A DNA stretch of 33,598 nucleotides from the NCBI GenBank assembly GCA_012689325.1, contig JAAYEA010000119.1, positions 1 to 33,598 on the forward strand, written 5' to 3'. Both the position numbers and the translations under genes were made by a program. Positions 820 to 33,019 of this stretch are shown piece by piece. Below the pieces are notes generated by a model. It was not told the origin of the DNA. It was given only the letters and a program-made list of their open reading frames with translations, and did no database searches. Position 1 is the stretch's first letter, and each line of letters opens with the position of its first letter. Source of the stretch: Chloroflexota bacterium (lineage in GTDB: Bacteria; Chloroflexota; Anaerolineae; JAAYEA01).

Positions 820-1173
820 TCAGCGGACCCATTGAGGGCGCTGCAGCGAGCTTTTGACAGCATCGTAGGCAGGATCGGCGGCTCCAGGTTTGTGCGCTCG
901 GGGCTCTTCTCGAGCTGTTGCTGGGCTGCAGCGGCAGGGAAGTGGGAAAAGATACCGAACGAACACCCGCTTTCCTCTCCTGCCAGCGACTTGGGCGATG
1001 CGAAGCATGCATTCCTGAATGGCGAGGTTGTCGGACGGGATGACCAGCAGCCTCCCTTGGCAGGGCGGGACATGTAGATCGGGCCAACGGCGACGCTGTG
1101 CCCACAGCGATAGCGTGGTCAGCGTGAGCAAGCCCTGAAACTGTCTATCTTCTTCCCTTGCCTTTGTCGCCAT
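820..1173 (-). CDS. Small protein translationally coupled to the HerA/TraG-like ATPase
   Basis: This is a 117-residue protein of unknown function. Its ATG (1173-1171) overlaps the TGA of the upstream ATPase (1175-1173) by one base, the TGATG arrangement typical of translational coupling. That overlap is the main reason to accept it as real. The first 65 residues (MATKAREEDRQF, then LLVIPSDNLAIQECMLRIAQV) read like a folded soluble domain, whereas the last 40 are rich in Pro, Arg and Ala and may be poorly conserved. No motif was recognised. Because it is coupled to the ATPase it may be an accessory subunit, but that is inference. It could also be a decayed 3' extension. Confidence 0.5.
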   Translation of the reverse strand: MATKAREEDRQFQGLLTLTTLSLWAQRRRWPDLHVPPCQGRLLVIPSDNLAIQECMLRIAQVAGRRGKRVFVRYLFPLPCRCSPATAREEPRAHKPGAADPAYDAVKSSLQRPQWVR

Positions 1174-2630: not shown

Positions 2631-2656
2631 GGCAGGGCGAGGTTGTCCTCTGTCCC

Positions 2657-2662
2657 ATTATA
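2657..2662 (-). promoter_or_regulatory. Candidate -10 box for the HerA/TraG-like ATPase
   Basis: A perfect TATAAT on the minus strand lies 27 bases upstream of the ATG at 2630. No good -35 hexamer lies at 16-18 bases; the nearest TTGCCC is 22 bases away. The call rests on the -10 alone. Confidence 0.35.
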
Positions 2663-2695
2663 CGCGCCGGGCGTGGTATGGTATGGGCAAGAGAT

Positions 2696-2971
2696 ATGCA
2701 GAGGGAGCAACTGAGGGCCTTGCGCGCCGCGCGCAGCTACGCCCACAACCTGGAGCTACAAGCTCGCATCGAGAGTCGTCTGGAACGGGCGAAGGGATCA
2801 TTGGAAACCTACCTCCTGCTCAACGGCGTGGACTCGGCCCAGTTGGGCCGGTTCCGGGTGGCGCTGGATGACGGCCAACTGTCCGTCACCCGGGCACCGG
2901 CGGAGGGCTGCGAGCAGCTGGTCATGGCGGAGATCGTTGAGACTCGGAGCCGGACTGAAGCCGACCATTGA
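2696..2971 (+). CDS. Small hypothetical protein with helical N-terminus
   Basis: This 91-residue protein has no recognised family. The first 45 residues (MQREQLRALRAARSYAHN, then LQARIESRLERAKGSLETYL) are strongly charged and predicted helical, possibly a coiled coil. They are followed by a short beta-rich part (RFRVALDDGQLSVTRA). An alternative ATG at 2678 would add six residues; neither start has a clear Shine-Dalgarno. It is divergent from the HerA/TraG-like gene and 37 bases upstream of the DUF6573-like gene on the same strand, so the two may be co-transcribed. Codon use matches its neighbours, which supports coding. Confidence 0.6.
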   Translation: MQREQLRALRAARSYAHNLELQARIESRLERAKGSLETYLLLNGVDSAQLGRFRVALDDGQLSVTRAPAEGCEQLVMAEIVETRSRTEADH

Positions 2972-3008
2972 CCTGGCGCGCCCTGCCGCGTTACAATCAG
3001 GCCAACAT

Positions 3009-3383
3009 ATGGTGGAACGCCGAGAACAGGATGATTGGGCTATCTTTACCTACTCTGCCGAGCAGGCCGTCGCCGACGGCGTGCTGGTGGAGGTGGATCG
3101 GGAGCTACGGGAAGAGATGGGCTACCGCTGGCCGGTACGCCTGAGCCAAGACGTGGCGGCCATGGTCAACCCCAGCGAGGAGGATCGGCGGATGGGGCAG
3201 AGCAAGGAAGGGAGGTTGTGGGACCTCCTCTTCGTCTCCAAGCTGGCCCTCCAGGGGGCCGACCCGGACGAGCGCGTCGTGGCCTTCGATATCCTCTTCG
3301 GGCGGCGCACCTCGCGTCTATGGGCCTGCCTGGACACCACCAGCGGCCCGGCGATCCACATCATCACGCCAGAGGAGTATTGA
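3009..3383 (+). CDS. DUF6573-family protein
   Basis: This 124-residue protein resembles DUF6573, a family of small proteins of unknown function often found on plasmids, phages and integrative elements. The supporting signature is an aromatic start (DWAIFTYSAEQAVADGVLVE), then a Gly-Tyr-x-Trp-Pro-Val segment, and a C-terminal half with LWDLLFVSKLAL and a basic strand VVAFDILFGRR. The ATG at 3009 is used because the conserved start follows within 10 residues. It follows the small helical gene and precedes the alpha/beta hydrolase. The family assignment comes from recognised pattern, not a search. Confidence 0.7.
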   Translation: MVERREQDDWAIFTYSAEQAVADGVLVEVDRELREEMGYRWPVRLSQDVAAMVNPSEEDRRMGQSKEGRLWDLLFVSKLALQGADPDERVVAFDILFGRRTSRLWACLDTTSGPAIHIITPEEY

Positions 3384-3423
3384 GGCTCGCGATACCTCAA
3401 GGACGGCAGACCGGCCTGGGAAT

Positions 3424-3451
3424 TTGCCCAGGGCTGACTTGGCACTATACT
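3424..3451 (+). promoter_or_regulatory. Promoter for the alpha/beta hydrolase
   Basis: TTGCCC (3424-3429) and TATACT (3446-3451) are separated by 16 bases. The start would fall near 3458, just before two strong Shine-Dalgarno-like purine runs (AGGAGG at 3467-3472, GGGAGG at 3475-3480). Confidence 0.55.
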
Positions 3452-3485
3452 GGCATGGCTAGATCAGGAGGAGAGGGAGGGACAC

Positions 3486-4280
3486 ATGGAAACAGCTATG
3501 GGTCGCGCGGAAGTCAACGGCACTCGCCTGCGGTATGCGCTGTCAGGCTCAGGGGAGCCATTGGTGTTCATACACGGGTTTACGCTGGATCTGCGCATGT
3601 GGGATGCGCAGATGGAAGCCTTCACGCGTAACTACCAGGTGCTCCGCTACGACGTCCGTGGCTTTGGCGAATCTGCGCCGCCTACGGAGGAAGGACACTC
3701 TCACACAGATGATCTCAAAGCGCTGCTCGATCTGCTGGGTATCGAAAGCGCACATATCGTGGGCCTTTCCATGGGCGGCCAGATCGCCGTTGATTTCGTG
3801 CTGGATTACCCCGATGCAGTACGTAGCCTCACCCTGGTCGACGCGGGCTTGGGCGGGTATCGCTGGAGCCAGGAATTTGCGTCAATGTTCGGCGAGCTTG
3901 AAAGGTTGGCCAGGGAGTCCGGGATCGAAGCCAGAATGAAGTACTGGTTGGGTTGCCGGTTATTTGCCCCTTCTATGGAGCAGCCCGACGTGGCGCAGCA
4001 GCTGAGGGAGATGGTAACGAATTGCCCAACATGGCATTTGCACAAGAGTGCAAGGCGGCGGGAGGTCCCCGCTATCGAGCGACTTGGCGACATCGCCAAG
4101 CCTGTCCTGATCATTGTGGGAGAGCTGGACATGCAGGATTTTCACGCGATCGCCGCCAAGCTACGTCAGGAGATCCCAGGAGCGCGAAGGGTCGTCTTGC
4201 CCGGAGTAGGTCACATGTCCAACATGGAGGACCCCGCTGCATTCAACCAGGTCGTGATGGATTTCCTGGCGGGGCTATAA
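3486..4280 (+). CDS. Alpha/beta-hydrolase (3-oxoadipate enol-lactonase/esterase-like)
   Basis: This 264-residue soluble hydrolase has an intact catalytic triad. The nucleophile is S95 in GLSMGG, the acid is probably D215 in GELDMQDF, and the base is H243 in GVGHMSN. The oxyanion-hole element is HGFTL (30-34), and YDVRGFGES (55-63) is the conserved loop before the cap. Size and motifs fit the general esterase, lactonase and haloperoxidase-like group; the substrate cannot be read from sequence. It has its own promoter and a strong Shine-Dalgarno (GGGAGG six bases before the ATG), so it is probably monocistronic. It converges with the winged-helix gene at 4452-4880. Confidence 0.92.
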   Translation: METAMGRAEVNGTRLRYALSGSGEPLVFIHGFTLDLRMWDAQMEAFTRNYQVLRYDVRGFGESAPPTEEGHSHTDDLKALLDLLGIESAHIVGLSMGGQIAVDFVLDYPDAVRSLTLVDAGLGGYRWSQEFASMFGELERLARESGIEARMKYWLGCRLFAPSMEQPDVAQQLREMVTNCPTWHLHKSARRREVPAIERLGDIAKPVLIIVGELDMQDFHAIAAKLRQEIPGARRVVLPGVGHMSNMEDPAAFNQVVMDFLAGL

Positions 4281-4398
4281 CGACTTCCCCAGACCCTGTC
4301 ACCTGCACTTTGCCACGGGCAGGAGTAGGAGTCCCTTTTGCCCAGAGGATTCTAAAATCGAAAAGCAATTGGTTATTCTTTCTCTCTGGTTCTTCTTC

Positions 4399-4450
4399 GT
4401 GTCCGACGCCACCGTATCCGGTGGTGTCCGACACGGTCCGAATCGGACCG
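4399..4450. repeat. Nested palindromes and direct repeat between convergent genes
   Basis: The element starts with direct repeats of GTGTCCGAC at 4399-4407 and 4424-4432 flanking a hairpin CCACCG-TATC-CGGTGG (4409-4424). Next comes a 17-base palindrome CGGTCCGAATCGGACCG (4434-4450), which ends two bases before the stop of the winged-helix gene. There is no T-run, so a rho-independent terminator is not obvious. A protein-binding site or a structured RNA end is possible. Confidence 0.6.
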
Positions 4451-4451
4451 G

Positions 4452-4880
4452 TCATTTGCCCTTGAAACGGCGCGATTTGGGGAAAAGCTGGTAGGTGTTG
4501 CTGCGGAACTTGCCCGTCTCCCCGTCTATCCCCTGCACCCGGCTGATGTAGCCCCGGCGCTCCAGCTTGGCCAGGCATTTGCAGACCGTGTCCTTGTTGT
4601 AGCCGGTCTCGTGGGCGATGAGCTTGATGGAGGGCCAGGCCAGGCCCTTCTCGTTGATGTGCAGGGCGATGCAGACAAACACCCCCAGGATGGGGCCTTT
4701 CAGCTGCCTGAGCTGTGCCTCCCGAAAGCGCACCGAGAGCCTGACCGAGACCTCGGAGCGCGAATTCGTCTCCCCCGTGTCGGTCACATAGTATTCGTGC
4801 CCGTTGAAGATGGTGATGGTCGGCTCGGGCTTGGTGAGCTCGTCCATCCGTTTTGCTAGGATGCCTGCTACGTTTTGCAT
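4452..4880 (-). CDS. Winged-helix DNA-binding protein (HTH_36-like)
   Basis: This is a 142-residue protein. The C-terminal half (about 58-140) is a winged helix: GPILGVFVCIALHINEKGLAW is helix 1, SIKLIAHETGYNKDTVCKCL is the helix-turn-helix, and KLERRGYISRV is the wing lead-in. This arrangement is typical of HTH_36 domains, found in plasmid replication initiators and in regulators. The N-terminal 55 residues are unrecognised. It is the last gene of the minus-strand set and lies directly beyond the 8-bp repeat cluster (4902-5048), which is a candidate binding region. The ATG at 4880 lacks a Shine-Dalgarno; an ATG at residue 12 is an alternative. Confidence 0.75.
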   Translation of the reverse strand: MQNVAGILAKRMDELTKPEPTITIFNGHEYYVTDTGETNSRSEVSVRLSVRFREAQLRQLKGPILGVFVCIALHINEKGLAWPSIKLIAHETGYNKDTVCKCLAKLERRGYISRVQGIDGETGKFRSNTYQLFPKSRRFKGK

Positions 4881-4901
4881 AGGGTGTTACGGTTAATTGG
4901 T

Positions 4902-5048
4902 ATCATGGTCCCACGGCTCCCTTCTATCGTGGTAGGTTCCATGGAACCGTGAAGCCATGATGTCATGATACGGCGGCATCGAGAAACCATCGTATCACCA
5001 CATCGTGGCTCCAAGTCATGGTGATACCGTGGCATCACGGTATCACGG
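4902..5048. repeat. Cluster of degenerate 8-bp RTCRYGGT repeats, main block
   Basis: Copies of (A/G)TC(A/G)(C/T)GG lie on both strands at 4902-4908, 4926-4932, 4955-4961 (minus), 5002-5008, 5015-5021, 5034-5040 and 5042-5048, with further half-copies between them. The last two are in direct tandem with an 8-base period. The block fills the whole gap between the winged-helix gene and the small basic-protein gene. It resembles iterons or a partition site, but a dispersed simple-sequence repeat is also possible. Confidence 0.75.
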
Positions 5049-5066
5049 CACCATCACAGGTAGCTC

Positions 5067-5489
5067 TCAAGCCCGGAGTGCGGCCAGCACCTTGTGCAGA
5101 ATGCTGCTCCTGCTGTTGGCCTGGTGGTCCTGCAGAAGCCAGTTGATGCCGATGCGAGCGATCTCGTTCTCGCAGGTCTTGACGCCCTGCTGCCCATAGG
5201 TGAAGACGATCCGGGCGATGGCGTCCTTCTCCTCCCGCGTGAAGCGGTGAGTGGCGGCCTCCTTGCCCAGCTGCTTCACCGCCTTGCGGATGCCCTTGAT
5301 CATGGTTGGCGTGGTGGTGTCACGGTATCGTGGTGTCGTGGTATCACGCTTCGCATCGTGGGGCCGTGGCTTCGGCCTGGGAGCAGGGGAGGGGAGCGGT
5401 TTGGACGATGCCTTCGGTTCTTCCGCCGCCCTGGGCCTCTGCGTGGTCTCGGCTTTCTTGTCCAGTTCCAACAGCTCGTTGAAGGTCAT
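5067..5489 (-). CDS. Small basic protein with Pro/Lys-rich linker
   Basis: This 140-residue protein of unknown function begins MTFNELLELDKKAETT. Its ATG overlaps the stop of the ExeA-like ATPase by four bases (ATGA), indicating translational coupling and fixing the start. Residues about 20-65 are a Pro, Lys and Arg-rich linker (PLPSPAPRPKPRP). The C-terminal part is a compact helical domain (FTREEKDAIARIVFTYGQQG, then CENEIARIGINWLLQD). The linker segment KRDTTTPRYRDTTTPT is encoded by the 8-bp repeats, so repeat and protein have evolved together. A role as DNA-binding partner of the ExeA-like ATPase is inference from coupling. Confidence 0.75.
   Translation of the reverse strand: MTFNELLELDKKAETTQRPRAAEEPKASSKPLPSPAPRPKPRPHDAKRDTTTPRYRDTTTPTMIKGIRKAVKQLGKEAATHRFTREEKDAIARIVFTYGQQGVKTCENEIARIGINWLLQDHQANSRSSILHKVLAALRA
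5299..5361. repeat. RTCRYGGT repeats inside the basic-protein gene
   Basis: Further copies of the 8-bp repeat occur at 5299-5305, 5319-5325, 5327-5333, 5335-5341, 5343-5348 and 5355-5361. Those from 5319 to 5348 are in direct tandem with an 8-base period. They lie inside the coding sequence and encode its repetitive Thr/Pro/Arg linker. Confidence 0.75.
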
Positions 5490-6286
5490 AGTTCTTTGTT
5501 TGCTTTTATAACCATTTTGGCGGTGATCTGCCGCGACTTGCGCACCCAGCCTTGCAGCAGCGCCGCGTGGCACAGCTTGACCACGTGGCGGGGGTTGCCT
5601 TTGCTGAGCTGGTAGATCAGGTCGTAGGCCTTGGTCGTGAAGGGGGGATTGGCCCCGGCATGGCCGCCTGCGGCCACCGTCCAGCGGAAGCGGATCATCT
5701 TTGCCATATCCTCCCGCGTCATCTCGGTCACCGAGGAGGAGACCATCCGCGACTTGAGCGAGGCGTGGCGGCCGATGCGGTCGGCCAATTCCGGCTGGCC
5801 CACCAGGACGATCATCAGCAGCACCCGCTCGTTGGAGACGAAATTGAGCAGGTAGTGGATCAGCTTGAGCTCGTCCGTGTTCAGGTTCTGGGCCTCGTCG
5901 AGCAGGAGGAGGGGAAACTGGTCCTCTTTGGTCTGGGCGATGAGGAATGCCTCAAAGTTCTTGAGGCTTTGCCCGTAGCTGCGGGCGGTCTTGACGCCAA
6001 AGGCGTCGCAGATGATGCGCAGGAGCTGGTTGGACGTGCGCACGTTGGGCGCGATGACGTAGCGCGCGTTGGCCTGGGGATCACCGTCTACCTCCTGGGT
6101 AATGAGGCGCAGGAGCGACGTTTTGCCCGATCCGATGGGGCCATAGAGGTAGAGGGAGGCGGAGCGATCACGCAGGAAATAGAGGAGCTTGGACTTGGTC
6201 TCCAGGTAGGGCTCGGACAAGTACATGAAGCGCGGGTTGGGCAGGAGAGCGAACGGCTTCTCCTTGAGCCCGTAGAAGTCGAGCAT
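5486..6286 (-). CDS. ExeA/TniB-like AAA+ ATPase
   Basis: This 266-residue ATPase begins MLDFYGLKEKPFALLPNPRF, the hallmark N-terminus of the ExeA/GspA-like family. Walker A is GPIGSGKT (49-56), Walker B LLLLDEAQNL (D130/E131), and the GQPEL segment follows as sensor 1. Family members act as MuB/TniB-like target-selection factors in transposons, or in secretion systems. No PilQ, GspB or transposase gene accompanies it here. Its neighbours are an RHH-like protein, a winged-helix protein and repeats, which favour a DNA-maintenance role. An in-frame TTG at 6316 could add 10 residues; neither start has a Shine-Dalgarno. It is translationally coupled to the small basic protein. Confidence 0.88.
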   Translation of the reverse strand: MLDFYGLKEKPFALLPNPRFMYLSEPYLETKSKLLYFLRDRSASLYLYGPIGSGKTSLLRLITQEVDGDPQANARYVIAPNVRTSNQLLRIICDAFGVKTARSYGQSLKNFEAFLIAQTKEDQFPLLLLDEAQNLNTDELKLIHYLLNFVSNERVLLMIVLVGQPELADRIGRHASLKSRMVSSSVTEMTREDMAKMIRFRWTVAAGGHAGANPPFTTKAYDLIYQLSKGNPRHVVKLCHAALLQGWVRKSRQITAKMVIKANKEL

Positions 6287-6337
6287 ATATGAAGAGGATA
6301 TCGGGAGTTGGGGCAAGTGTCAAGGACAGGGATGGAC

Positions 6338-6757
6338 TTACTCCAACTCGATGGCCTTGTCGAGAGCCTCGGCACATTGGCCAATGCGGGATTTATTGCA
6401 GTCAATCCGAAAGCCCCAGCAGGCGGAGCAAGCACTTCCATGCCTGTTTCGCTCACCCATGAAGACAATGGTCCGAGTTTTGCGGTCCCTTGTCAAGCCT
6501 CGACGTGCGCAGATGCGCTCCCCGGTTGTAGAGGCAAACTCCAAGCCACTATCGCCTATGTAGTTATACACCACTTCAAAGGAATGCTTTGGGGTGAACC
6601 GACCTCCATCGCCACCATTTGGATGTGCCATCGCCTCACATACCTCCCGCCAGTATTGTCTGCGCATTTCGCTGCATTCCCATTGGAATGGGCCAAGGAG
6701 TGGGAAGGACTGGAATGCTGTGCACATGATACGCAGTCGCCGCGCTTCGTCAATCAC
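6338..6757 (-). CDS. Cys-rich hypothetical protein
   Basis: This 139-residue protein is unrecognised. The GTG at 6757 overlaps the end of the RHH-like gene (stop 6752-6750), so the pair is probably coupled; a TTG at 6766 is an alternative. The C-terminal third carries four cysteines in SACSACWGFRIDCNKSRIGQC-like order (CxxC, then C, then C), a possible zinc site. An acidic helix (CAEALDKAIELE) closes the protein. The central part (RYTPKHSFEVVYNY-like) is beta-rich. It sits 52 bases upstream of the ExeA-like gene on the same strand. Confidence 0.55.
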   Translation of the reverse strand: MIDEARRLRIMCTAFQSFPLLGPFQWECSEMRRQYWREVCEAMAHPNGGDGGRFTPKHSFEVVYNYIGDSGLEFASTTGERICARRGLTRDRKTRTIVFMGERNRHGSACSACWGFRIDCNKSRIGQCAEALDKAIELE

Positions 6758-7064
6758 AAACGCCAACCGAACGGGCCACGTCCGCGCTCAGGAGCCGGCT
6801 CGGCCTTCGCGTGGGTACGGGGGATAGACCCTCCACTTCAGGGTTAGCGGGACGCATGGCCTCTTCGGGGAAGGCGGCGCTCCAGTCGCGGTGGCAGTCC
6901 TGCCGGTAGTCCTCGATGAACTGCCCCAGCGCCCGGTCCACCAATACCGTGATGGGTTCGCCCAGCTCGTGACTGATCTGGTGCAGCGCGCGGATGCGCT
7001 GGCTGTGGATGCGGGGCTGGTAGAGCCGCTCGTCGCGATCCCAGTCCATTTGCTCGGGTGTCAT
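6750..7064 (-). CDS. Putative ribbon-helix-helix-like DNA-binding protein
   Basis: This is a 104-residue protein. The segment RIRALHQISHELGEPITVLV, followed by DRALGQFIEDYR, matches the helix-turn-helix spacing of ribbon-helix-helix (CopG/MetJ-like) proteins, with an N-terminal arm (RLYQPRIHSQ) as candidate strand. The C-terminal 40 residues are Pro/Arg-rich and unrecognised. It is the first gene of a minus-strand set that runs through to 4452. Its ATG lies only 8 bases after an extended -10 box, so the transcript is probably leaderless. Likely an autoregulator of this set, by inference. Confidence 0.6.
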   Translation of the reverse strand: MTPEQMDWDRDERLYQPRIHSQRIRALHQISHELGEPITVLVDRALGQFIEDYRQDCHRDWSAAFPEEAMRPANPEVEGLSPVPTRRPSRLLSADVARSVGVCD

Positions 7065-7072
7065 ATAGAGAC

Positions 7073-7081
7073 ATTATACCA
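7073..7081 (-). promoter_or_regulatory. Extended -10 promoter of the RHH-like gene
   Basis: TGGTATAAT on the minus strand (7081-7073) is a perfect extended -10 element. The ATG at 7064 follows after 8 bases, so the message would start at or within a base or two of the start codon. No Shine-Dalgarno or clear -35 is present. Confidence 0.6.
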
Positions 7082-7104
7082 AATCGCTGCCGCGGACCTG
7101 TGGG

Positions 7105-7401
7105 TCAGAGGTCATCTGGGGGGTGCTTGGTCTGGGCATAGCGCACGCTGAGCCAGATGAGCGCCAACCGCTCCGGGGCAGGCAGGTCCACCAGCTCGCG
7201 CATGGCAGGTAGCTCCGGCGGCAGCTCCCACGGATCCAGCGGCGCGGGCTCCAGGTATAGGTACTTCCCCTCCTGCTGGCAAGGTGGGCATACCTCGCGG
7301 CTGCGGTTGCCGCACCAGACGCAGATGCCCATGTTGCGGGGCTTGATGTCGGGATCGCGCGCCTCGATGGCCGGTGGCGGCTGTAGCTTTTCGGTGGTCA
7401 T
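7105..7401 (-). CDS. Small zinc-finger protein
   Basis: This 98-residue protein carries one four-cysteine zinc site: CVWCGNRSREVCPPCQQEG (CxxC, 7 residues, CxxC). It then has a Pro/Leu-rich, acidic stretch (PLDPWELPPELPAM) and a final helix (APERLALIWLSVRYAQ). The fold and role are unknown; comparable small zinc proteins mediate protein or nucleic-acid contacts. The ATG at 7401 lies five bases after an extended -10 box and has no Shine-Dalgarno, so it looks leaderless; an ATG at 7416 would lie within that promoter. It is upstream of the RHH-like gene on the same strand, but that gene has its own promoter. Confidence 0.65.
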   Translation of the reverse strand: MTTEKLQPPPAIEARDPDIKPRNMGICVWCGNRSREVCPPCQQEGKYLYLEPAPLDPWELPPELPAMRELVDLPAPERLALIWLSVRYAQTKHPPDDL

Positions 7402-7406
7402 GTGCG

Positions 7407-7415
7407 ATGATACCA
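7407..7415 (-). promoter_or_regulatory. Extended -10 promoter of the zinc-finger gene
   Basis: TGGTATCAT on the minus strand (7415-7407), five bases before the ATG at 7401. It resembles the extended -10 of the RHH-like gene (TGGTATAAT) with one change. No clear -35. Confidence 0.45.
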
Positions 7416-7464
7416 TGACAGAGGACGAGGAAGGCCGGACTGCCGCGGAAAGGCCATTCTCGCT

Positions 7465-7662
7465 TCACCAGATCGCCTCCAGGGGCTGCAATAGAGCCGA
7501 GGGGACAAAGAAGTGCCAGGTGAGTCGAACGTGCGCCACAGGCCCGATCTCGAGACGGAGTTGCTTTTGCCATGCGCGGGGGCTGTGATCGGTTTTAGAA
7601 ACTGCCTTTGGTGCGACTTGCCACCAGATTCTATTGATCATATAATGCCAGTTGTACGCCAT
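7465..7662 (-). CDS. Doubtful small ORF
   Basis: A possible 65-residue protein, starting MAYNWHYMINRIWWQ and ending LLQPLEAIW. Its Trp-rich composition reads like a real protein fragment, and it could be a remnant of a larger gene. However it overlaps the plus-strand promoter at 7618-7646, lacks a good Shine-Dalgarno and has no recognised family. The rest of the 7402-7774 gap holds only that promoter and a leader of about 120 bases for the membrane-protein gene. Confidence 0.2.
   Translation of the reverse strand: MAYNWHYMINRIWWQVAPKAVSKTDHSPRAWQKQLRLEIGPVAHVRLTWHFFVPSALLQPLEAIW
7618..7646 (+). promoter_or_regulatory. Sigma70 promoter of the membrane protein-HerA operon
   Basis: TTGCCA (7618-7623) and TATAAT (7641-7646) are separated by exactly 17 bases. 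Hexamers and spacing are identical to the comM promoter at 10748-10776. The leader to the ATG at 7775 is about 120 bases. Confidence 0.7.
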
Positions 7663-7774
7663 GATCTGCCTGGCATGGTCTCTGTGTCTGGTACGACTTC
7701 GACCCACGAGAGTTCCTGAAACGATTGCTGCGCGATATTGCCGGTTTTCCAGGATGACTCGAAAGGAGCGAAAC

Positions 7775-8575
7775 ATGTCTACCGAGCAAGGCAACGGTCA
7801 ACCGGATTCCGATCAAATCTCGCAGGCAGTTCAGTTTTGGCAACAGATGCCCACTATCGCCCGCGTCGGCCTTATCACGGCGTTGGTGGGCCTGATCGGA
7901 AGGTGGGCTTCCCCTCGCTACTCCTCCGGACACACTTTCTTCACTTTCGTGCTTGATGTCGGGATTTTGGTCCTCATCGTTTGGATCGCTCGGCTCTTCA
8001 TCATGCCTATCGTGCGAAAGCAGCAGATTGTCGAGGAATGGGGGATACTTATCCAGGGTGGCCAAGAGCATGCAGCCAAGATTCTGGAGCAGAGCCGCGA
8101 GCTGATCACGACCAGCAAAGCCCCCCACATCACCATGGAAGAGAAGGGGATTGCGGCAGGGTTCCTCCGTGGAATCACGGGGGAACGAAGGACCTTTCTG
8201 GTCGTCACGAATCGCACCAACGCCAACCTCAAGTCGTACGAGATGTACCTGAGCGCCAGAGAGTACGGGGACAACCTGCAGGTCTCCTGGTATGTGATCC
8301 ATTGGCCTAGTGTGGCCCAGGTCTGGCTGCGCCTCTCAATGTTTGCGCCTCTGGTGAACCTGTTTGTGTTACCCATCTTTGTGCTTATGCAGTTGCCCAA
8401 GGCTGGGCAGGCCGGCCTGCTCGACCTGGACTTTTTCGATCTGCAAGACCTCAAAGCCTATGTCACCAATGCCCATCATTGCGTGCTGGATGCAGTGGAC
8501 AAGCTGCTGCTGGACCTGAGCCAGGACCCCAGCAAGATCGAGCGCAAGTCGCGCGGCTTCCTGGGGATCTCCTGA
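7775..8575 (+). CDS. Membrane protein, partner of HerA/TraG-nuclease ATPase
   Basis: This 266-residue membrane protein of unknown family is preceded by a good Shine-Dalgarno (AAAGGAG, 8 bases before the ATG). It has two N-terminal transmembrane segments (about 27-45, and 53-80 with GILVLIVWIARLFIM) and a third hydrophobic segment (about 190-212, MFAPLVNLFVLPIFVLMQL). Between them lies a soluble domain of about 110 residues. The C-terminus is soluble and helical. It lies 10 bases upstream of the HerA/TraG-nuclease gene on the same strand, so the two form an operon. A membrane anchor or channel subunit for the ATPase is the simplest inference. It is not a recognised VirB-type component. Confidence 0.8.
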   Translation: MSTEQGNGQPDSDQISQAVQFWQQMPTIARVGLITALVGLIGRWASPRYSSGHTFFTFVLDVGILVLIVWIARLFIMPIVRKQQIVEEWGILIQGGQEHAAKILEQSRELITTSKAPHITMEEKGIAAGFLRGITGERRTFLVVTNRTNANLKSYEMYLSAREYGDNLQVSWYVIHWPSVAQVWLRLSMFAPLVNLFVLPIFVLMQLPKAGQAGLLDLDFFDLQDLKAYVTNAHHCVLDAVDKLLLDLSQDPSKIERKSRGFLGIS

Positions 8576-8585
8576 GGTTTGAGTT

Positions 8586-10724
8586 GTGAAACAACCAGGC
8601 AAGGATCGGCAGGAAGGGCAAAAGGGAGCGGCGAGGGCCGAGGTAGTTCCCGCCGACTCGGAGGGGCCGCCGGGGCGCTACAATGCGCCGATCCCCAACG
8701 CCCTTGACCTGGGCTGGTACTACAGCGAGACCAAGAACCAACTCCAGATGGCCAAGATCGCCCAGCGCGACCGGGCCACGCACATGTACGTCGTCGGCGC
8801 CAGCGGCTCGGGCAAGACCAAGTTCCTGGAGTTCCTCATCGCTCAGGACATCGAAGAGGGGAATGGCTTCGGCGTCATTGATCCTCACGGCGACTTGATC
8901 GAGGACATCAAGGGCATCCTGGCCTGTCGCTACCACGATGAGAAGGACGGGCGCGAGCTTGCCGAGCGCACGGTCCTGATCGATCCCACCGACCCCGAGT
9001 ACACCGCGATCTTTAACCCCCTGGAGGAGCTGCCCAATACTTCGGCAGCGGAGCAGGCCAACGAGTTGGTGGGGGCCTTTCGCCGCATCTGGTCCGATTC
9101 CTGGGGCGTCAGGATGGAAGACCTGCTGCGCAACGCCCTGATTGCCCTGGGCGAGGCCCGGTGCACCCTCCCCGACCTGCCTGCCTTCCTCACGCGCCAG
9201 TCCTATCGGGCCGAGGTCATGCAGCGCGTCCGCCACCCCGTGGCCTGGGAGTATTTTCAGGGATACGACGCCCTGACCGAGAGGGCGCAGTCCGAGCGCA
9301 ACCAGCCGGTGATGAACAAGGTCAACGCCTTCCTGTCTGACGACAGGATCAGGGCCATGTTATCCGCGCCCAAGAGCACCTTCAACATCCGGGAGATCAT
9401 GGACCAGGGCATGATCCTGCTGGTGAACCTGGATAAGGGCAAGCTCAAGGGGGCAGGGGACCTTCTGGGGTCGCTGCTCATGGCCAAGCTCCAGATGGCC
9501 GCCTTCTCACGGTCCGATGTCCTGCCCAACCGGCGACGCCCCTTCTACCTTTACGTGGACGAGTTCCAGAACTATGCCAGCGACTCGTTCGAGGTGGCGC
9601 TGTCGGAGGCGCGCAAGTACGGCCTCTCCCTGACCATGGCCCACCAGACACTGGGCCAGATCTCCAACGAGTTGAGAAGCCTGATCTTGGGGAACGCGGG
9701 TATCCAGGTCTATTTCCGGCTCAATCGTCAGGACGCCCAGTTGTTGGCCAAGGAGATATTCGAGTACTCCGGTTTCGAGGTCAAGTACTTTCACAGCCAT
9801 TCGCCAACCTTCTGGAGCCTGGGGGAGGAGTGGGAGCGCAAGACGGCCGAGCTGCAGCGCCTACCGCTGAGAGTGTGTTTGGCGAAACACAAGATCGAGG
9901 GTGGCTTGGTACTGTTGCACACGGCGGATATGAACCCTCCCTGGCAGGTGCTGGGGATGGATATCGGCGACTATCTGGAGTTCGTGAGCGAGCTCCCGTT
10001 TGGCCGCGGACATCTGGTGCCCAGACGCGACCTCCCGCTCTTCACCCGCGGCAGAGTGGCAGAGCGCGCAGCAGCCGAGGTAGTGAGGGAACCTCCAACC
10101 CCGACGCCTCCCAGTACAACCTCACCGGAACGCAAGCCCCGCCCGGACAAAGAGGCAACTGCTCCTGCCCGTGAGAGAGCGCCAGTCGCCGTGCCTCCGG
10201 CAGGGGAGGGGAAAGGTGGCCGCCAACACAAGTACTTGCAGAACCTCATCAAGAAGCTGGCGGAGGAAAACGGCTGGAGGGCCATCATCGAAAAGCCCAC
10301 CCCCGACGCGCAAGGGCAGGTGGATATCAGCCTGGAGCAGGATGGCAGCAGCATCGCCTGCGAGGTATCCGTAACCACGGGCGGGCAGCAAGAGCTGGGC
10401 AACGTCCGCAAGTGCCTGGCCGCTGGCTATGACCAGGTGATCTTGTGCTCGCCGGACAAGGGGAGCCTGCAGAAACTCGAAAAGGTGATCACGAAGGAGC
10501 TTGAGCCGTCTGAGCGCGAACGGGTCCTCTTCCTCGACCCCGAGGGGCTTCTGGCCCAACTCAGCCAACGAAGAGAGGAGGATGCGCCCACCGAACAGCG
10601 CATCAAGGGCTACAAGGTCAAGGTGCGGCGTCAGTTGGTAGACGAGGCCGATGAGCAGGCGCGGCGCGAGGCCATTGCCCAGGTCATCGTGCAGTCCATG
10701 AAGCGTCTGCGGGATGAGGACTGA
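8586..10724 (+). CDS. HerA/TraG-like ATPase with C-terminal nuclease-like domain
   Basis: This is a 712-residue protein starting with GTG. The ATPase core (about 35-470) has Walker A GASGSGKTK (71-79), VIDPHGDLIED and Walker B YLYVDEFQNY (D325/E326), and is homologous to the ATPase at 1173-2630. A Pro/Arg-rich linker follows (about 490-550). The C-terminal domain (about 552-670) resembles a PD-(D/E)XK restriction-like fold: GQVDISLEQ (D580) and IACEVSVTT (E593), then a helix ending NVRKCLAAGYDQVILC. The usual Lys of ExK is Ser595 here, so activity is uncertain. In such fusions a DNA motor delivers substrate to a nuclease, as in DNA-end processing or defence. It is co-transcribed with the upstream membrane protein. 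The fold call is from motif reading. Confidence 0.85.
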   Translation: MKQPGKDRQEGQKGAARAEVVPADSEGPPGRYNAPIPNALDLGWYYSETKNQLQMAKIAQRDRATHMYVVGASGSGKTKFLEFLIAQDIEEGNGFGVIDPHGDLIEDIKGILACRYHDEKDGRELAERTVLIDPTDPEYTAIFNPLEELPNTSAAEQANELVGAFRRIWSDSWGVRMEDLLRNALIALGEARCTLPDLPAFLTRQSYRAEVMQRVRHPVAWEYFQGYDALTERAQSERNQPVMNKVNAFLSDDRIRAMLSAPKSTFNIREIMDQGMILLVNLDKGKLKGAGDLLGSLLMAKLQMAAFSRSDVLPNRRRPFYLYVDEFQNYASDSFEVALSEARKYGLSLTMAHQTLGQISNELRSLILGNAGIQVYFRLNRQDAQLLAKEIFEYSGFEVKYFHSHSPTFWSLGEEWERKTAELQRLPLRVCLAKHKIEGGLVLLHTADMNPPWQVLGMDIGDYLEFVSELPFGRGHLVPRRDLPLFTRGRVAERAAAEVVREPPTPTPPSTTSPERKPRPDKEATAPARERAPVAVPPAGEGKGGRQHKYLQNLIKKLAEENGWRAIIEKPTPDAQGQVDISLEQDGSSIACEVSVTTGGQQELGNVRKCLAAGYDQVILCSPDKGSLQKLEKVITKELEPSERERVLFLDPEGLLAQLSQRREEDAPTEQRIKGYKVKVRRQLVDEADEQARREAIAQVIVQSMKRLRDED

Positions 10725-10747
10725 CTGCGTCTCGCAAACGCAGGATA

Positions 10748-10776
10748 TTGCCATAATCCAGGCATGACTTTATAAT
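10748..10776 (+). promoter_or_regulatory. Sigma70 promoter of comM
   Basis: TTGCCA (10748-10753), 17-base spacer, TATAAT (10771-10776). The predicted start is near 10783, 33 bases before the comM ATG; GAGGGCGGA serves as Shine-Dalgarno. Confidence 0.75.
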
Positions 10777-10815
10777 CAAAAGTGGCTTTGGTATCACATC
10801 GCTGGTGAGGGCGGA

Positions 10816-12339
10816 ATGCTGGCCAAGATCATGAGTTGCGCGTTGGTGGGGCTGGACGGCATGTTGGTGGACGTAGAGGTGGACGTCCACCCCGGCTTGG
10901 TGGGCATGATTGACATCGTTGGTCTGCCCGATGCCGCCGTCCAGGAGTCGCGGCAGCGGGTGCGCTCGGCTATCCACAACTCCCGGCTTCGATTTCCCGA
11001 CAAGCGCATCACCATCAACCTGGCGCCTGCAGACCTGCGCAAGGAAGGCCCTGCCTACGATCTGCCCATCGCCGTGGGCATACTGGCCGGGGCCGAGCAG
11101 ATTCCAGCTGACTACCAGGACAGCTTGTTCATCGGCGAGCTCTCGCTGGACGGCAACGTGCGCCACGTGAACGGCATCATCTCCATGGCCTCGGTGGCGC
11201 GGGAGAACGGCCTACACACCATCTATGTGCCGAAGGAAGATGCGCCGGAGGCGGCGCTGGTGCCCGATCTTCAGGTGATGCCGGTGGAGACGCTGGGGCA
11301 GTTGGTGATGCATCTGAACAACCTGCTGCTGATCGAGCCCTATGTGCCCGGCGACGACGACGTTGCCGACCGCGAACCAGACTATGCTACCGATTTCTCC
11401 GAGATCAAGGGGCAAGAGCACGTCAAGCGGGCGCTGGAGGTGGCGGCGGCGGGCGGGCATTGCGTCCTGATGACGGGGCCGCCGGGGTCGGGCAAGACGC
11501 TACTGGCCCGCGCCTTGCCCTCGATCCTGCCTCGGCTGACCATTGATGAGTCTTTAGAAGTCACCAAGATCTACTCGGTGGCGGGGATGCTGCCGCCGGG
11601 CCAGCCGCTGCTGCGCCACAGGCCCTTCCGCTCGCCGCACCACACCATCTCGCAGGCGGGGCTGGTGGGCGGCGGACACTGGCCACGCCCAGGGGAGATC
11701 TCGCTGGCCCACCGGGGCGTGCTCTTTCTGGACGAGCTGCCCGAGTTCGGGATGCGCACGCTGGAGGTGCTGCGTCAGCCGCTGGAGGACAAGGTGGTCA
11801 CCATCTCCCGCGCGACGGGGTCCCTGAGCTTTCCGAGCAACTTCCTAATGGTCGGCGCCCGAAATCCGTGTCCTTGCGGATATTATGGAGACGCCACACA
11901 TGAATGTACCTGTTCCCATGGCATGATAGAGAGCTACCAGAAACGCATCTCGGGGCCGCTAATGGACCGCATCGACATCCACGTCGAGGTGCCGCACGTG
12001 GATTACGAAAAGCTCTCCGGCCAGACCCTAGCCGAGACCTCGGCGGCGATCCGCGCCCGGGTGGAGGCAGCGCGAGAGCGGCAGCAGGCGCGGTTCAAGG
12101 GCACGGCGCTATACGCTAACGCCGACATGGGGCCGAAAGAGGTGCGGGAGCATTGCCGCCTGGACGAGGCGGGCAGCACCCTGATCCGCGCGGCCATGCG
12201 CCAGTTAGGGCTGAGCGCGCGGGCCTATCACCGCGTGCTCAAGCTGGCGCGGACCATCGCCGACCTGGCGGGCGCGGAGGGGATCGCCTCATCGCACCTG
12301 GCGGAGGCGCTGCAATATCGGAGGCGACTGGGGGAGTAA
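10816..12339 (+). CDS. comM: ComM/YifB family Mg-chelatase-like AAA+ ATPase, full length
   Basis: This is a 507-residue protein of the usual family length. The N-terminal ChlI-like/Lon-protease-fold domain (about 1-170) is followed by an AAA+ domain with Walker A GPPGSGKT (221-228), Walker B VLFLDELPEF and a sensor region. The C-terminal part starts at NPCPCGYYGD (350 onward) with a Cys cluster (CPCGYYGDATHECTC) and ends in the conserved helical domain (ANADMGPKEVREHC, LGLSARAYHRVLKLARTIADL). ComM is a hexameric helicase that extends branch migration during natural transformation. It has its own promoter. A divergent copy of its last 157 residues lies 4 kb downstream. The ATG start fits a typical MLAKI-like N-terminus. 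Confidence 0.96.
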   Translation: MLAKIMSCALVGLDGMLVDVEVDVHPGLVGMIDIVGLPDAAVQESRQRVRSAIHNSRLRFPDKRITINLAPADLRKEGPAYDLPIAVGILAGAEQIPADYQDSLFIGELSLDGNVRHVNGIISMASVARENGLHTIYVPKEDAPEAALVPDLQVMPVETLGQLVMHLNNLLLIEPYVPGDDDVADREPDYATDFSEIKGQEHVKRALEVAAAGGHCVLMTGPPGSGKTLLARALPSILPRLTIDESLEVTKIYSVAGMLPPGQPLLRHRPFRSPHHTISQAGLVGGGHWPRPGEISLAHRGVLFLDELPEFGMRTLEVLRQPLEDKVVTISRATGSLSFPSNFLMVGARNPCPCGYYGDATHECTCSHGMIESYQKRISGPLMDRIDIHVEVPHVDYEKLSGQTLAETSAAIRARVEAARERQQARFKGTALYANADMGPKEVREHCRLDEAGSTLIRAAMRQLGLSARAYHRVLKLARTIADLAGAEGIASSHLAEALQYRRRLGE

Positions 12340-12580
12340 AGACATCTCTCCTGATGCTGTCCTGCCTGGTTTGGTATAGGGCAGGCAGATGATGGCTAGC
12401 TTTATCCTTGGCCATATTTCAGAAGACCGGAATGAGTCGCCGAGACACAGGCCGCTATGAACTTCCGAGCCAATTCGGATGCTCTTGTTTGTCGCTGCGT
12501 TGATCAGGGTCAGCCTAGCCGACCCTGTGGGCATTGAAGCAGAAGCCATAGTGTAGGAGATCTAGGGAGTTGAGAATTCC
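12340..12580. other. Intergenic leader upstream of the SIR2-Argonaute gene
   Basis: This interval has no gene. A weak hairpin CCTGCC/GGCAGG lies just after comM, without a T-run. A perfect 7-bp inverted repeat, CAGGGTC (12505-12511) and GACCCTG (12521-12527), surrounds AGCCTAGCC. A Shine-Dalgarno-like AGGGAG (12564-12569) precedes the ATG of the next gene. No convincing promoter was found. Confidence 0.5.
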
Positions 12581-15500
12581 ATGCCCGACCTGACACTTTC
12601 GCTAGATGCTTTCGTCCGTGCTGTCGGTGTAGATTGTAGTTCGCCACACGCCATCTTCCTCGGAGCAGGCGCATCAGTGAGTTCGGGGATTCCTTCTGCC
12701 GGACAGTGTGTCTGGGAGTGGAAACGGGATATCTTCGTTACCAATAACCCAGGCCTTGAGCGGCAGTTCTCGGAGTTGACCCTGCCATCTGTCCGGGACC
12801 GCATTCAGCGGTGGCTAGATGCGAGATGTACCTATCCCATCAACGGATCACCCGACGAGTACTCCTTCTACATGGAGCAATGTTATCCTGTCAGCCAACA
12901 CCGACGACAGTATTTTGCTGACAAAGTTCGTTTGGCTCGACCCCATACCGGCTACAAGCTACTCTGCCTGATGGCTGAAGCAGGAATCATCGCATCAACG
13001 TGGACCACGAACTTTGATGGGCTGGTGTCCAGGACCGCAACAAGTTTCAACATAACACCCATAGAGGTCGGCATCGATTGCCAAGATCGTGCAATCCGCC
13101 AACCGCGGCGGGGGGAGTTGCTTTGTGTCTCCTTGCACGGGGATTATCGCTATGACGGGCTGAAGAACACGCACGCTGAATTACAGCAGCAAGAGTCTCA
13201 ATTGGAAGATGCTCTCATAGCGACGATCGAGGGTACATCCCTAATTGTGCTGGGCTATAGTGGTCGGGATCAGTCGCTTATGAAGGCACTGGAAACAGCG
13301 TATTCCCGGCAAGGCACCGCTAGCCTTTACTGGTGTGGCTACGGTACCGAGATCAGCGCGCCTGTTCGCAGGCTGCTGGAGACAGCGACGGTTGCTGGTC
13401 GTGCTGCTTTCTATGTACCAACGATGGGCTTTGACGACACTCTCGCACGATTGGCACTGCACTGTCTTACTGGGCAGCAGCATGAACATGCTCGGCATAT
13501 CTTGGCAGAGACGAGCCCAGAACTGCGCGACCGAAACGAGCCGTTCACTATTGCCGGGCTTCCTTGCACAGGTCTGATCAAGAGCAATATCTTCGAGGTT
13601 AGCTGCCCTCTAGAAGTGTTTGCGGTTGGCATCAGAGCATGGCCTGAAGAGCCGTGGAAATGGCTTGATAGTGTCACTGCCGGACAGAGGCTCGTCGCCG
13701 TTCCATACCGGAAGCAGGTATTGGCTATAGGCCTTTTGGATGAAATCCGCAAGGCTATCGGAGATCAGCTGATCAATTCGATAGAGCGAACGCCAGTAAC
13801 AGATGCCGACACGACGCTGGAACATGGGGCAGTGAACCGATTGATGCGCTGCGCATTACTCCGTGCGTTTGCCGAGGACCCACGTGTTGCCACTGATAGC
13901 AGGAGCCTCTTGTGGGAAACACAACCGTATTGCAGGAGACAGATTGGCGATCAGGATTACTGCATACACAAGGCGGCAGTTCTCTATCTGCGAATGGTCA
14001 CTGGGCGGTTAGGACTCGTGATCAAGCCGACTGTTGTGATCCACGATGCTGACGGCAATGAGCTTCCGGAAGACAGGGCGAGGATTCTCAGGGCGGGTAT
14101 TCTTGGATACGAACATAACAAGCAGTTTAACCAGAGCCTCAAAAGCTGGAGACAACTTCTCATGCCATCCAGTGGTACGATGGATATTGAGTTTCCTCCG
14201 AATTGCGGTTCGACCTTCCGGTTCAGAGTAAGAACAGCCCCGCAGTTTGCCCAGATTGGTTCGAGATTGGGTGGGAACCAGGTCCACATAGATGATCGGG
14301 TCCGCCCGCTCGTCAAACAGCAGGGTGTCGTAATCCCAGAGCCAGCGCTCCTATTTGCGGACCAGCGTGGGACTCGGTATGTGAGCGATACACATCCCTT
14401 GCGCGGCCTGCAACTGAATCGCCCCTTCGATTTTGCGTTGACTTCGCAGGGACTTGCGCCAAGCATCCGTCTTGGTGTGGTATGCCCCAAAGCAGAAAGC
14501 CAACCACTAAGTCAGTACCTCTGCCGATCTAGCCAAACTCATAAGCCGAATGATACGGAGACAGACTATCTGATCGACTATCCAGGATTTCAGCAGGCTT
14601 TTGGTGTCATGCTGGAGATTCCCCGGCCAGGAGAGGCTGGATGGGCAATCTGTCCAGAGCCCGGAGTCAAGGGGGCCAAGCTGGAGAGCTCTCTTCAATT
14701 GGCTCGCCTGATTATCGGCGAAATCGATTCTATCGTTGCAGCAGGAAAGCCGCATGTCGTGCTCGTTTTCATTCCTGATCGCTGGACTTCTTGGCGGGAA
14801 TATCAAGATAGTCAAGAACGTTTCGATCTTCACGACTTTGTCAAAGCATATTGTGTGCAGAAGGGAATTGCGACCCAATTCCTTGAGCAGCACACTTTGA
14901 ACAGCCAGCAGCAGTGCCGCGTGTGGTGGTGGCTGTCCTTGGCACTGTATGCCAAGGCGATGCGGACGCCTTGGGTGCTCGAGACGCTTGACCCTGACAC
15001 TGCTTTTGTCGGGCTGGGATTCACCATCGAGCACAATGCATCGACAAACCAGCGCGTGGTTCTAGGTTGCAGCCATCTGTACAACGCTAACGGAGAAGGG
15101 CTGCAGTTTCGTTTGAGCCAGATCGAGAGTCCGGTCATTGTGCGCCGTAATCCGCATATGTCATACGATGATGCCCGGCGAACTGCAGAAATGATCCGAC
15201 AGCTTTTCTTTGAGGCACAATTACGCCTACCTTCCCGTGTAGTTGTCCACAAGCAGACGCCTTTTCTGGATGCCGAGAAGCAAGGTCTCCTGGACGGTCT
15301 AGATGGTGTCAACGCAGTGGACCTGGTCGAGATCAACATTGATGCAGCACTTCGTTATGTTTCCTCTGTGAAGAAACCGGGCGGTTTCGACGAAGACAAT
15401 TATCCTGTGCGTCGCGGGACGGTGGTTCAGACAGATAGTCGAGAGGCTCTCGTCTGGTGTCACGGCGCGACAGACGCCTTGGCCCAAGGAAGGAGATACT

Positions 15501-15733
15501 TCCAAGGTAAGCGACACATCCCCGCCCCCTTGCTCCTACGCCGTCATGCTGGTAAAGCCGACCTTGAGTTGCTCGCTTCTGAGATTCTAGGACTATCCAA
15601 GATGGATTGGAACTCAGCAGACCTGTATTCGAAGCTTCCTGCTACAATCCACTCATCAAAACGGATTGCTCGAATTGGATCGAAACTGCAACGACTCGGA
15701 CCTGCATCGTACGACTATCGGCTGTTTATGTGA
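12581..15733 (+). CDS. Single-chain SIR2-APAZ-MID-PIWI short Argonaute (fused SPARSA)
   Basis: This 1050-residue defence protein joins both parts of a SPARSA system. The N-terminal SIR2-like NADase (about 20-300) has GAGAS (28-32), SSGIPS, TTNFDG (N144, D146) and SLHGD (H186). A long APAZ-like region follows (about 330-650). The MID domain holds HDFVKAYCVQKGIATQ (751-766), with Tyr/Lys/Gln positions suited to guide 5'-phosphate binding. The PIWI domain begins near AFVGLGF (808-814), where Leu replaces the first catalytic Asp, and ends in the typical SSKRIARIG ... YDYRLFM. Known SPARSA systems are activated by RNA-guided recognition of invader DNA and then deplete NAD+. I expect a non-slicing sensor Argonaute with an intact NADase. 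Its base composition is visibly less GC-rich than its neighbours, suggesting transfer. Confidence 0.93.
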   Translation: MPDLTLSLDAFVRAVGVDCSSPHAIFLGAGASVSSGIPSAGQCVWEWKRDIFVTNNPGLERQFSELTLPSVRDRIQRWLDARCTYPINGSPDEYSFYMEQCYPVSQHRRQYFADKVRLARPHTGYKLLCLMAEAGIIASTWTTNFDGLVSRTATSFNITPIEVGIDCQDRAIRQPRRGELLCVSLHGDYRYDGLKNTHAELQQQESQLEDALIATIEGTSLIVLGYSGRDQSLMKALETAYSRQGTASLYWCGYGTEISAPVRRLLETATVAGRAAFYVPTMGFDDTLARLALHCLTGQQHEHARHILAETSPELRDRNEPFTIAGLPCTGLIKSNIFEVSCPLEVFAVGIRAWPEEPWKWLDSVTAGQRLVAVPYRKQVLAIGLLDEIRKAIGDQLINSIERTPVTDADTTLEHGAVNRLMRCALLRAFAEDPRVATDSRSLLWETQPYCRRQIGDQDYCIHKAAVLYLRMVTGRLGLVIKPTVVIHDADGNELPEDRARILRAGILGYEHNKQFNQSLKSWRQLLMPSSGTMDIEFPPNCGSTFRFRVRTAPQFAQIGSRLGGNQVHIDDRVRPLVKQQGVVIPEPALLFADQRGTRYVSDTHPLRGLQLNRPFDFALTSQGLAPSIRLGVVCPKAESQPLSQYLCRSSQTHKPNDTETDYLIDYPGFQQAFGVMLEIPRPGEAGWAICPEPGVKGAKLESSLQLARLIIGEIDSIVAAGKPHVVLVFIPDRWTSWREYQDSQERFDLHDFVKAYCVQKGIATQFLEQHTLNSQQQCRVWWWLSLALYAKAMRTPWVLETLDPDTAFVGLGFTIEHNASTNQRVVLGCSHLYNANGEGLQFRLSQIESPVIVRRNPHMSYDDARRTAEMIRQLFFEAQLRLPSRVVVHKQTPFLDAEKQGLLDGLDGVNAVDLVEINIDAALRYVSSVKKPGGFDEDNYPVRRGTVVQTDSREALVWCHGATDALAQGRRYFQGKRHIPAPLLLRRHAGKADLELLASEILGLSKMDWNSADLYSKLPATIHSSKRIARIGSKLQRLGPASYDYRLFM

Positions 15734-15893
15734 GACTGACGGCTGCCGTAGATTGGCATCTGAGCGAGTAAGGCCGATGCACTGCATTCAACGGCTGTCA
15801 GCGTATTATGCAGCGCTTGTCACGATGGATGGGCGAAGAGCTCACCCACTCAAGACCTTTCGCCAAGCAAGCTGATACGTGCGATAGTGCCAG

Positions 15894-15911
15894 TTGTCAC
15901 TAGGCTGACAA
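15894..15911. repeat. Inverted repeat between the SIR2-Argonaute and HTH genes
   Basis: TTGTCA-CTAGGC-TGACAA is a perfect 6-bp inverted repeat. Its minus-strand reading contains GTCAGCCTAG, the same 10-mer found upstream of the SIR2-Argonaute gene at 12509-12518. It lies between two convergent genes and has no T-run. The rest of 15734-15931 shows no gene. Confidence 0.5.
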
Positions 15912-15931
15912 GTCGTCTATGTGCCAGGTGC

Positions 15932-16402
15932 TCAATACACATTCTGCATCTCCACTGTTTGGTCGTGATCAACCTGAACAAGAGGGAGGAAGCTCGCTAA
16001 CTGCTTTCGTAGCTTCGGCGATGGTAGCCCGTTCCCTCTCTCCCACCTGCCCAAAGTTGCAGGATCAATACCTAGTTGGCGAGCCAGCTTCTTTTGGCTC
16101 AGCCCCATCTTTTGCCGATAGGCAATGAGCCGCTGGCCGAGCGTGTCAGATGGCCTGGCACAGGGATCACGGCCTAGAAAAGCGATGATCCGTGAGATGT
16201 AGCGGATTTCCGGTGAGGTGTGGTTGAGCTCCCAGTTGACGATGGTGGCTTCGGCGACGTCGATCTGCTCGGCCACCTCCTGTTGCAGCAGGCCCAGGTC
16301 GAGCCGTCGCTTCCGGATGTGGTCACCGAGGGTGTTCAGCTGCACCGGACAGGGCAGGGGAGACGGCTTCGGGCCGGTCAGGGTGAAATGGCAAGATGGC
16401 AA
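15932..16402 (-). CDS. Double HTH (XRE/Cro-like) regulator
   Basis: This protein of up to 156 residues carries two HTH domains. The first (about 25-75) reads LGDHIRKRRLDLGLLQQEVA, then a turn and ATIVNWE; the second (about 88-138) reads LGQRLIAYRQKMGLSQKKLA, then ATLGRWERG. The first is followed by EIRYISRIIAFLG, a segment common to a widespread family of small regulators with this layout. The start is uncertain: TTG at 16402, or GTG at residue 20, just before the conserved part. It converges with the SIR2-Argonaute gene and overlaps the 5' end of the truncated comM fragment divergently. It may regulate the defence gene, but the pair could equally be co-acquired cargo. Confidence 0.82.
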   Translation of the reverse strand: MPSCHFTLTGPKPSPLPCPVQLNTLGDHIRKRRLDLGLLQQEVAEQIDVAEATIVNWELNHTSPEIRYISRIIAFLGRDPCARPSDTLGQRLIAYRQKMGLSQKKLARQLGIDPATLGRWERGNGLPSPKLRKQLASFLPLVQVDHDQTVEMQNVY

Positions 16403-16881
16403 CGCAACCTTGCCCCTGCGGCTACTATGGCGACCCTACCCACGAGTGCTCTTGCTCTTCCACCCTCATTTCGCGCTACCAGCGGCGCATCTCCGGCCCG
16501 CTCATGGACCGCATTGACCTCCACGTGGAGGTGCCGCGCGTCGAGTACGAAAAGCTGAGCAGCGACCAACTGGGCGAGCCCAGCGCCAAGATCCGCGAGC
16601 GGGTGGAACAGGCGCGCGCGGTGCAGCGCCAGCGCTTCGCCGGGACCAAGCTGGTCACCAATGCCGACATGGGGCCGAAAGAGGTGCGCGAATACTGCCG
16701 GCTGGACGAGGCGGGAAACACCCTGATCAAGGCGGCGATGCGACAATTGGGCTTGAGCGCGCGGGGGTTTCACCGCATCCTGAAGGTCTCGCGGACCATC
16801 GCCGACCTAGCGGGGAGCGAGAGGATCGAGACGGCGCACCTGGCCGAGGCGCTGCAATACCGGCCCAAGCGGCAGACATAG
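16396..16881 (+). pseudogene. comM: 3' fragment of a second comM/yifB gene
   Basis: This 161-residue reading frame matches only the last third of ComM (equivalent to residues 351-507 of the full copy at 10816-12339). It starts abruptly at the Cys cluster (PCPCGYYGDPTHECSC) and includes RISGPLMDRID and the C-terminal helical domain. It lacks the Walker A and B motifs and so cannot be an active ATPase. It has no Shine-Dalgarno. By eye the nucleotide match to the full copy over the same stretch is only moderate, so this is not a recent duplication. It is the remnant of a once complete gene or a xenologous copy, broken at its junction with the HTH gene. Confidence 0.88.
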
Positions 16882-32983: not shown

Positions 32984-33019
32984 AATCCGGAACCAGCCTC
33001 GAGACGAGAGGAGATCCAT

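Follow-up and report, generated by a model that had tools for sequence, protein, structure and literature searches.

The locus and its single-chain Argonaute

The window (the whole stretch of DNA analysed, 33,598 nucleotides) is the entire contig C565 of a draft Chloroflexota assembly. Its left part contains several ATPase genes and an intact yifB/comM-like gene, followed by a long Argonaute gene, a convergent regulator and a fragment of a second yifB gene. The following features were assigned:

1..16407, no strand: right part, as visible on the contig, of a presumed integrated element whose left end would lie on another contig (C464)
1173..2630, minus: second TrwB/TraD-like ATPase
5486..6316, minus: AAA_22/TniB-like ATPase
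8586..10724, plus: TrwB/TraD-like (type IV coupling protein) ATPase
10816..12339, plus: complete yifB/comM-like gene encoding 507 aa, presumed to be element-borne; identity to the native-type yifB of the same-family genome G001 is ~70%
12581..15733, plus: SIR2-APAZ-MID-PIWI single-chain short Argonaute of the SPARSA clade S1A type, 1050 aa
12602..13471, plus: SIR2 NADase domain, residues ~8-297 (~1-300), with N144/H186 aligned to the catalytic N142/H186 of GsSPARSA
13568..14320, plus: APAZ region, residues ~330-580, with a weaker match past residue 433-536
14330..14989, plus: MID domain, residues ~584-803, with H751, K755 and Q766 aligned to guide 5'-phosphate residues of GsSPARSA
14990..15730, plus: PIWI domain, residues ~804-1050, without the catalytic tetrad (G813, K891 and S1026 at the Asp positions)
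15932..16402, minus: ORF resembling a tandem XRE/HTH_3 regulator, oriented towards the Argonaute gene (convergent); its true start is probably inside the ORF
16408..16881, plus: 3' portion of the native host yifB, beginning at codon PCPCG and 81% identical to G001; right end of the insertion

To the right of the yifB fragment lie genes for cobalt transport and for the molybdenum cofactor. A 943-aa ORF at 30707-33538 (minus strand) had zero Pfam matches and a GC3 of 0.66, below that of the nearby cofactor genes.

The Argonaute gene is a single open frame with an ATG start and zero internal stops. As judged by profile and structure comparisons, SIR2, APAZ, MID and PIWI are all carried in one polypeptide, in agreement with the sequence-only reading, which had proposed a 1050-residue protein joining an intact SIR2 domain, an APAZ-like region and an inactive MID-PIWI. 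Pfam SIR2_2 matched residues 141-257 above its cut-off (E 9e-10), and in a comparison with solved structures residues 23-297 matched the SIR2 chain (5e-29) and residues 584-1050 the Ago chain (8in8_C, near end-to-end, 3e-56) of GsSPARSA, the clade S1B SIR2-APAZ/Ago system of Geobacter sulfurreducens (PDB 8in8, 8jkz, 8jl0, 8k87, 8y80). A family profile of eight homologues improved the match to the Ago chain to 1.6e-73 and aligned residues 19-433 with the SIR2-APAZ chain (2e-43), reaching into APAZ, and a profile-profile comparison with two-gene SIR2-APAZ proteins covered residues 44-536 (100%, 6e-44); the thinning of the APAZ match after residue 433-536 sets a limit on this part of the assignment. 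The PADLOC full-length pAgo model extended over residues 4-1050 with 1315 bits, and the PADLOC SIR2-PNTD1-PNTD2 model also matched, with 675 bits. With an AF2 model, whose confidence was modest (pLDDT 66.7), the structures retrieved were GsSPARSA Ago, its SIR2-APAZ chain (~620 columns) and also long Agos (830-870 columns); matches to long Agos are what one would expect if APAZ takes the role of N-L1-L2. By these matches, the closest solved relatives of the protein are the two chains of GsSPARSA, which has the same SIR2, APAZ, MID and inactive PIWI domains but consists of two polypeptides and is ~30% identical or less. Pfam Piwi remained sub-threshold on this protein (14.6 bits vs a cut-off of 28.9), and the PIWI domain would have gone undetected with this model alone.

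The SIR2 motifs GAGAS (28-32), TTNFDG (142-147), HGDYRY (from H186) and GYSGRD (225-230) were all found; GAGAS, TTNFDG and His186 had been noted from the sequence alone. Residues N144, F145, D146, H186, Y226, S227, R229 and D230 align with N142, F143, D144, H186, Y226, S227, R229 and D230 of GsSPARSA, which are catalytic or NAD+-contacting (PMC10781750), and R190 is also among the kept catalytic or NAD-contact residues. In the MID pocket, H751, K755 and Q766 correspond to the GsSPARSA guide 5'-phosphate residues H166, K170 (appearing as K70 in the source paper) and Q181. The PIWI slicer residues are absent, with VGLGF at the first Asp (GLSY in GsSPARSA), HKQT at the second and HSS at the last. 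The Asp positions are thus filled by G813, K891 and S1026, the last of which we take to be the final slicer position from the numbering of the AaAgo catalytic Asp. All eight homologues share H186, D146 and the residues of GYSGRD without exception. N144 is not invariant, being replaced by Asp in the homologue at L005.

The GsSPARSA mechanism (PMC10781750, PMC10474274) served as the model for a proposed function, and from it we infer guide type, activation and NAD+ depletion. MID would be loaded with a small guide bearing a 5' phosphate, by analogy an RNA, and complementary invader DNA would pair along APAZ-PIWI and be sensed without cutting. Movement of a sensor loop would then open the SIR2 pocket, and the opened site would hydrolyse NAD+, so that the cell stops and the population is spared (abortive infection). 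SIR2 domains of this kind were seen as nucleases in early literature (PMC6299218), and a nuclease or deacetylase activity instead of NADase might be considered, but the checked NAD-contact and catalytic positions match those of GsSPARSA, a proven NADase, which makes this alternative very improbable. Published accounts of SPARSA oligomerisation differ: no higher-order assembly was seen in a 2023 study (PMC10474274), a tetramer was deposited later as PDB 8y80, and tetramerisation is spoken of in a 2025 paper (PMC12205087).

Relatives of the fused protein

Nine full-length relatives with 49-61% identity were identified in a scan of GTDB contigs from Planctomycetota, Pseudomonadota, Chloroflexota and Hydrogenedentes. 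Seven of them (49-62%) are intact single frames of the same length as the 1050-aa protein, and the remaining two (L006 and L009) are broken by one-base shifts, so that a natural two-gene version at these loci was rejected. Plasmids of Sagittula sp. P11, Rhizobium ruizarguesonis and Bradyrhizobium japonicum carry relatives encoded as two genes, divided at the same boundary and ~32% identical; both halves are homologous to the window protein. Such a split might suggest that the fusion is an artefact, in which a two-gene SPARSA was joined through a lost stop codon or a sequencing error. This explanation has almost nothing to recommend it, because the same single frame occurs in seven independent genomes, on which an assembly-artefact fusion was rejected, and because the broken homologues show single-base shifts and no natural splits. 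In a 13-row MID-PIWI tree, moreover, the fused proteins formed one clade on a branch separate from the two-gene relatives (support 100/98), within which phyla were mixed; this tree is small, has two split rows with long branches and was built without a named S1A reference sequence.

The fused architecture had been regarded as unusual in the sequence-only reading, which is overstated. SIR2-APAZ-pAgo fusions are named as clade S1A of short pAgos (PMC12205087), and in 2018 Ryazansky et al. had put the number of short pAgos carrying APAZ together with SIR2 at 102 (PMC6299218). Single-chain and two-chain short pAgos are described as coexisting, with no known difference in function between them (PMC10954474). 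On its domain order and length, which are those of clade S1A, of the group Ia SIR2-APAZ short pAgos of Ryazansky et al. and of PADLOC PDLC02384, the window protein is a member of an already catalogued design; no structural or mechanistic difference from clade S1A was found, which leaves its host lineage and its setting in a yifB element as the sole distinctions. The fused SPARSA branch thereby gains a member. The searches yielded no solved structure for this branch, the SPARSA structures retrieved here being all two-chain, and a one-gene system would be convenient for biochemistry. A fused protein from Paraburkholderia graminis was reportedly tested alongside GsSPARSA in 2022.

Defence or mobility genes, such as GmrSD, DEAD/restriction, AbiJ and integrase genes, are often neighbours of the homologues. 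No partner gene recurred across 10 loci, which suggests that the protein is self-contained, and a conserved partner was rejected, as nothing was found beyond an AbiJ-type pair common to two Alphaproteobacteria. In this pair (L002 13147-14756 and L007 13080-14752), the first gene has an AbiJ N-terminal domain, and the two proteins are 71% and 79% identical between the loci. A viral origin was also rejected, since an exact-pattern scan of viral contigs gave zero matches to the protein and phage records gave partial matches only, the best being to residues 1-616 in an unannotated 7.3-kb record (34%). The homologue at L005 (3125-6274, from a metagenome assembly of Hydrogenedentes) departs at two key positions, with Asp at N144 and Arg at the guide-phosphate residue H751; it may be inactive or mis-sequenced, and the family may thus not be uniformly active.

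The broken yifB gene and the presumed element

A search of the genome for yifB placed the missing 5' part of the native gene on contig C464 at 6972-8030 (locus L038), where it aligns over residues 1-354. The gene has a single interruption, of which the left flank (ATGAACCCCTGGGGTT) and the right flank (ACGCAACCTTGCCCC) were both recovered, and in each the break falls in the same NPC codons (native sequence, ATGAACCCCTGTCCC). Identity to the G001 yifB is 82% for the part on C464 and 81% for the fragment in the window, vs ~70% over both halves for the intact window copy. The native yifB thus seems to have been split into two pieces, and the intact copy is a different yifB.

A 499-aa large serine recombinase (CcrB/XisF-like) at C464:5507-7006 abuts the break near 6972, and inward of it lie the type I restriction genes HsdR (1904-5155) and HsdS (636-1907). 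By Pfam, no recombinase was detected among the ORFs scanned in the window. In NCBIfam the C464 recombinase is most like CcrB (2e-42), with 145 bits vs the 900-bit CcrB cut-off. The arrangement resembles SCC-type elements, which use Ccr serine recombinases, in that a CcrB-like recombinase lies directly against a conserved gene at the point where that gene is broken. The target of SCC elements is rlmH. Here it is yifB instead, and the score is far below the CcrB cut-off; nothing relevant on serine recombinases in yifB/comM was found in the literature.

The simplest reading, for which continuity between the two contigs is inferred, is that one serine-recombinase element spans C464 and C565, the former being only 10.5 kb long in this draft assembly. 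With the yifB 3' half in the window and the 5' half next to the recombinase on C464, the Argonaute gene most likely lies at the right end of the integrated element, which most likely also carries its own intact yifB. Such a setting would illustrate a mode of carriage, in which the gene rides at one end of an element that breaks up a conserved gene of the host and brings along a copy of that gene.

Composition differs across this boundary, with a GC of 0.60 over 1..16407 vs 0.68 to the right. The Argonaute gene has a GC of 0.538 and a GC3 of 0.557, against a GC3 of 0.69-0.92 for most neighbouring genes; the gap from the adjoining TrwB-like gene (0.83) and the intact yifB (0.84) suggests that it probably reached the element separately. 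Among 100 genomes searched, the full-length protein was found in the window's own genome only. A foreign origin of the gene is thus supported by its GC3, the lack of a full-length copy in the other relatives, the cross-phylum tree and the split yifB. The sequence-only reading had taken the lower GC content as a sign of recent acquisition; composition supports the acquisition but not its date. The foreign GC3 might also be taken to indicate an intact yet silent or inactive cargo gene, but the 1050-codon frame is intact and the key residues are kept, and this explanation is improbable.

The reading strongly favoured by this analysis is that of a single-chain SPARSA which would carry out guide-directed NAD+ depletion leading to abortive infection, and which a serine-recombinase element in the host yifB carries as cargo at its right end. 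Its role would very probably be suicide defence against phages or plasmids. The position of the gene at an element end, the type I restriction-modification genes at the other presumed end (C464) and the restriction of the full-length copy to one searched genome also fit a main job of guarding the mobile element, and not the host, against competing plasmids, phages and elements. We regard this as the less likely emphasis, although the two are non-exclusive: the mechanism would be the same, and sequence cannot separate them.

Displaced yifB 3' ends in related genomes

Most of 150 genomes have a single yifB copy. In G011 (L039 4831-10419), the order is an intact yifB, a defence-like gene of NTPase type (944 aa) and a displaced yifB 3' end, which begins at the same codon as the window fragment. 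Extra or displaced yifB 3' parts were also detected in G124 (C4:18941-21152), G027 (C1:1122622-1181812), G022 (C254 and C424), G063 (C276), G099 (C11) and G140, with starts that are not all the same. Their occurrence across the class suggests that yifB is a repeated integration site. No close relative of the C464 recombinase was found in 30 relatives, implying that the recurrent breaks do not come from one close recombinase family.

A bolder proposal, to which we give somewhat less than an even chance, is that the NPC codon of yifB may be a recurrent class-wide attachment site for defence elements that displace the 3' end and bring a working yifB, the SIR2-Argonaute described here (G000) and the NTPase gene of G011 being interchangeable cargo. 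If so, the host would keep a functional yifB after each integration. In another genome, G021 (L040 26-2952), the interruption of yifB lies elsewhere, close to residue 328, and consists of a stretch with a 268-aa ORF.
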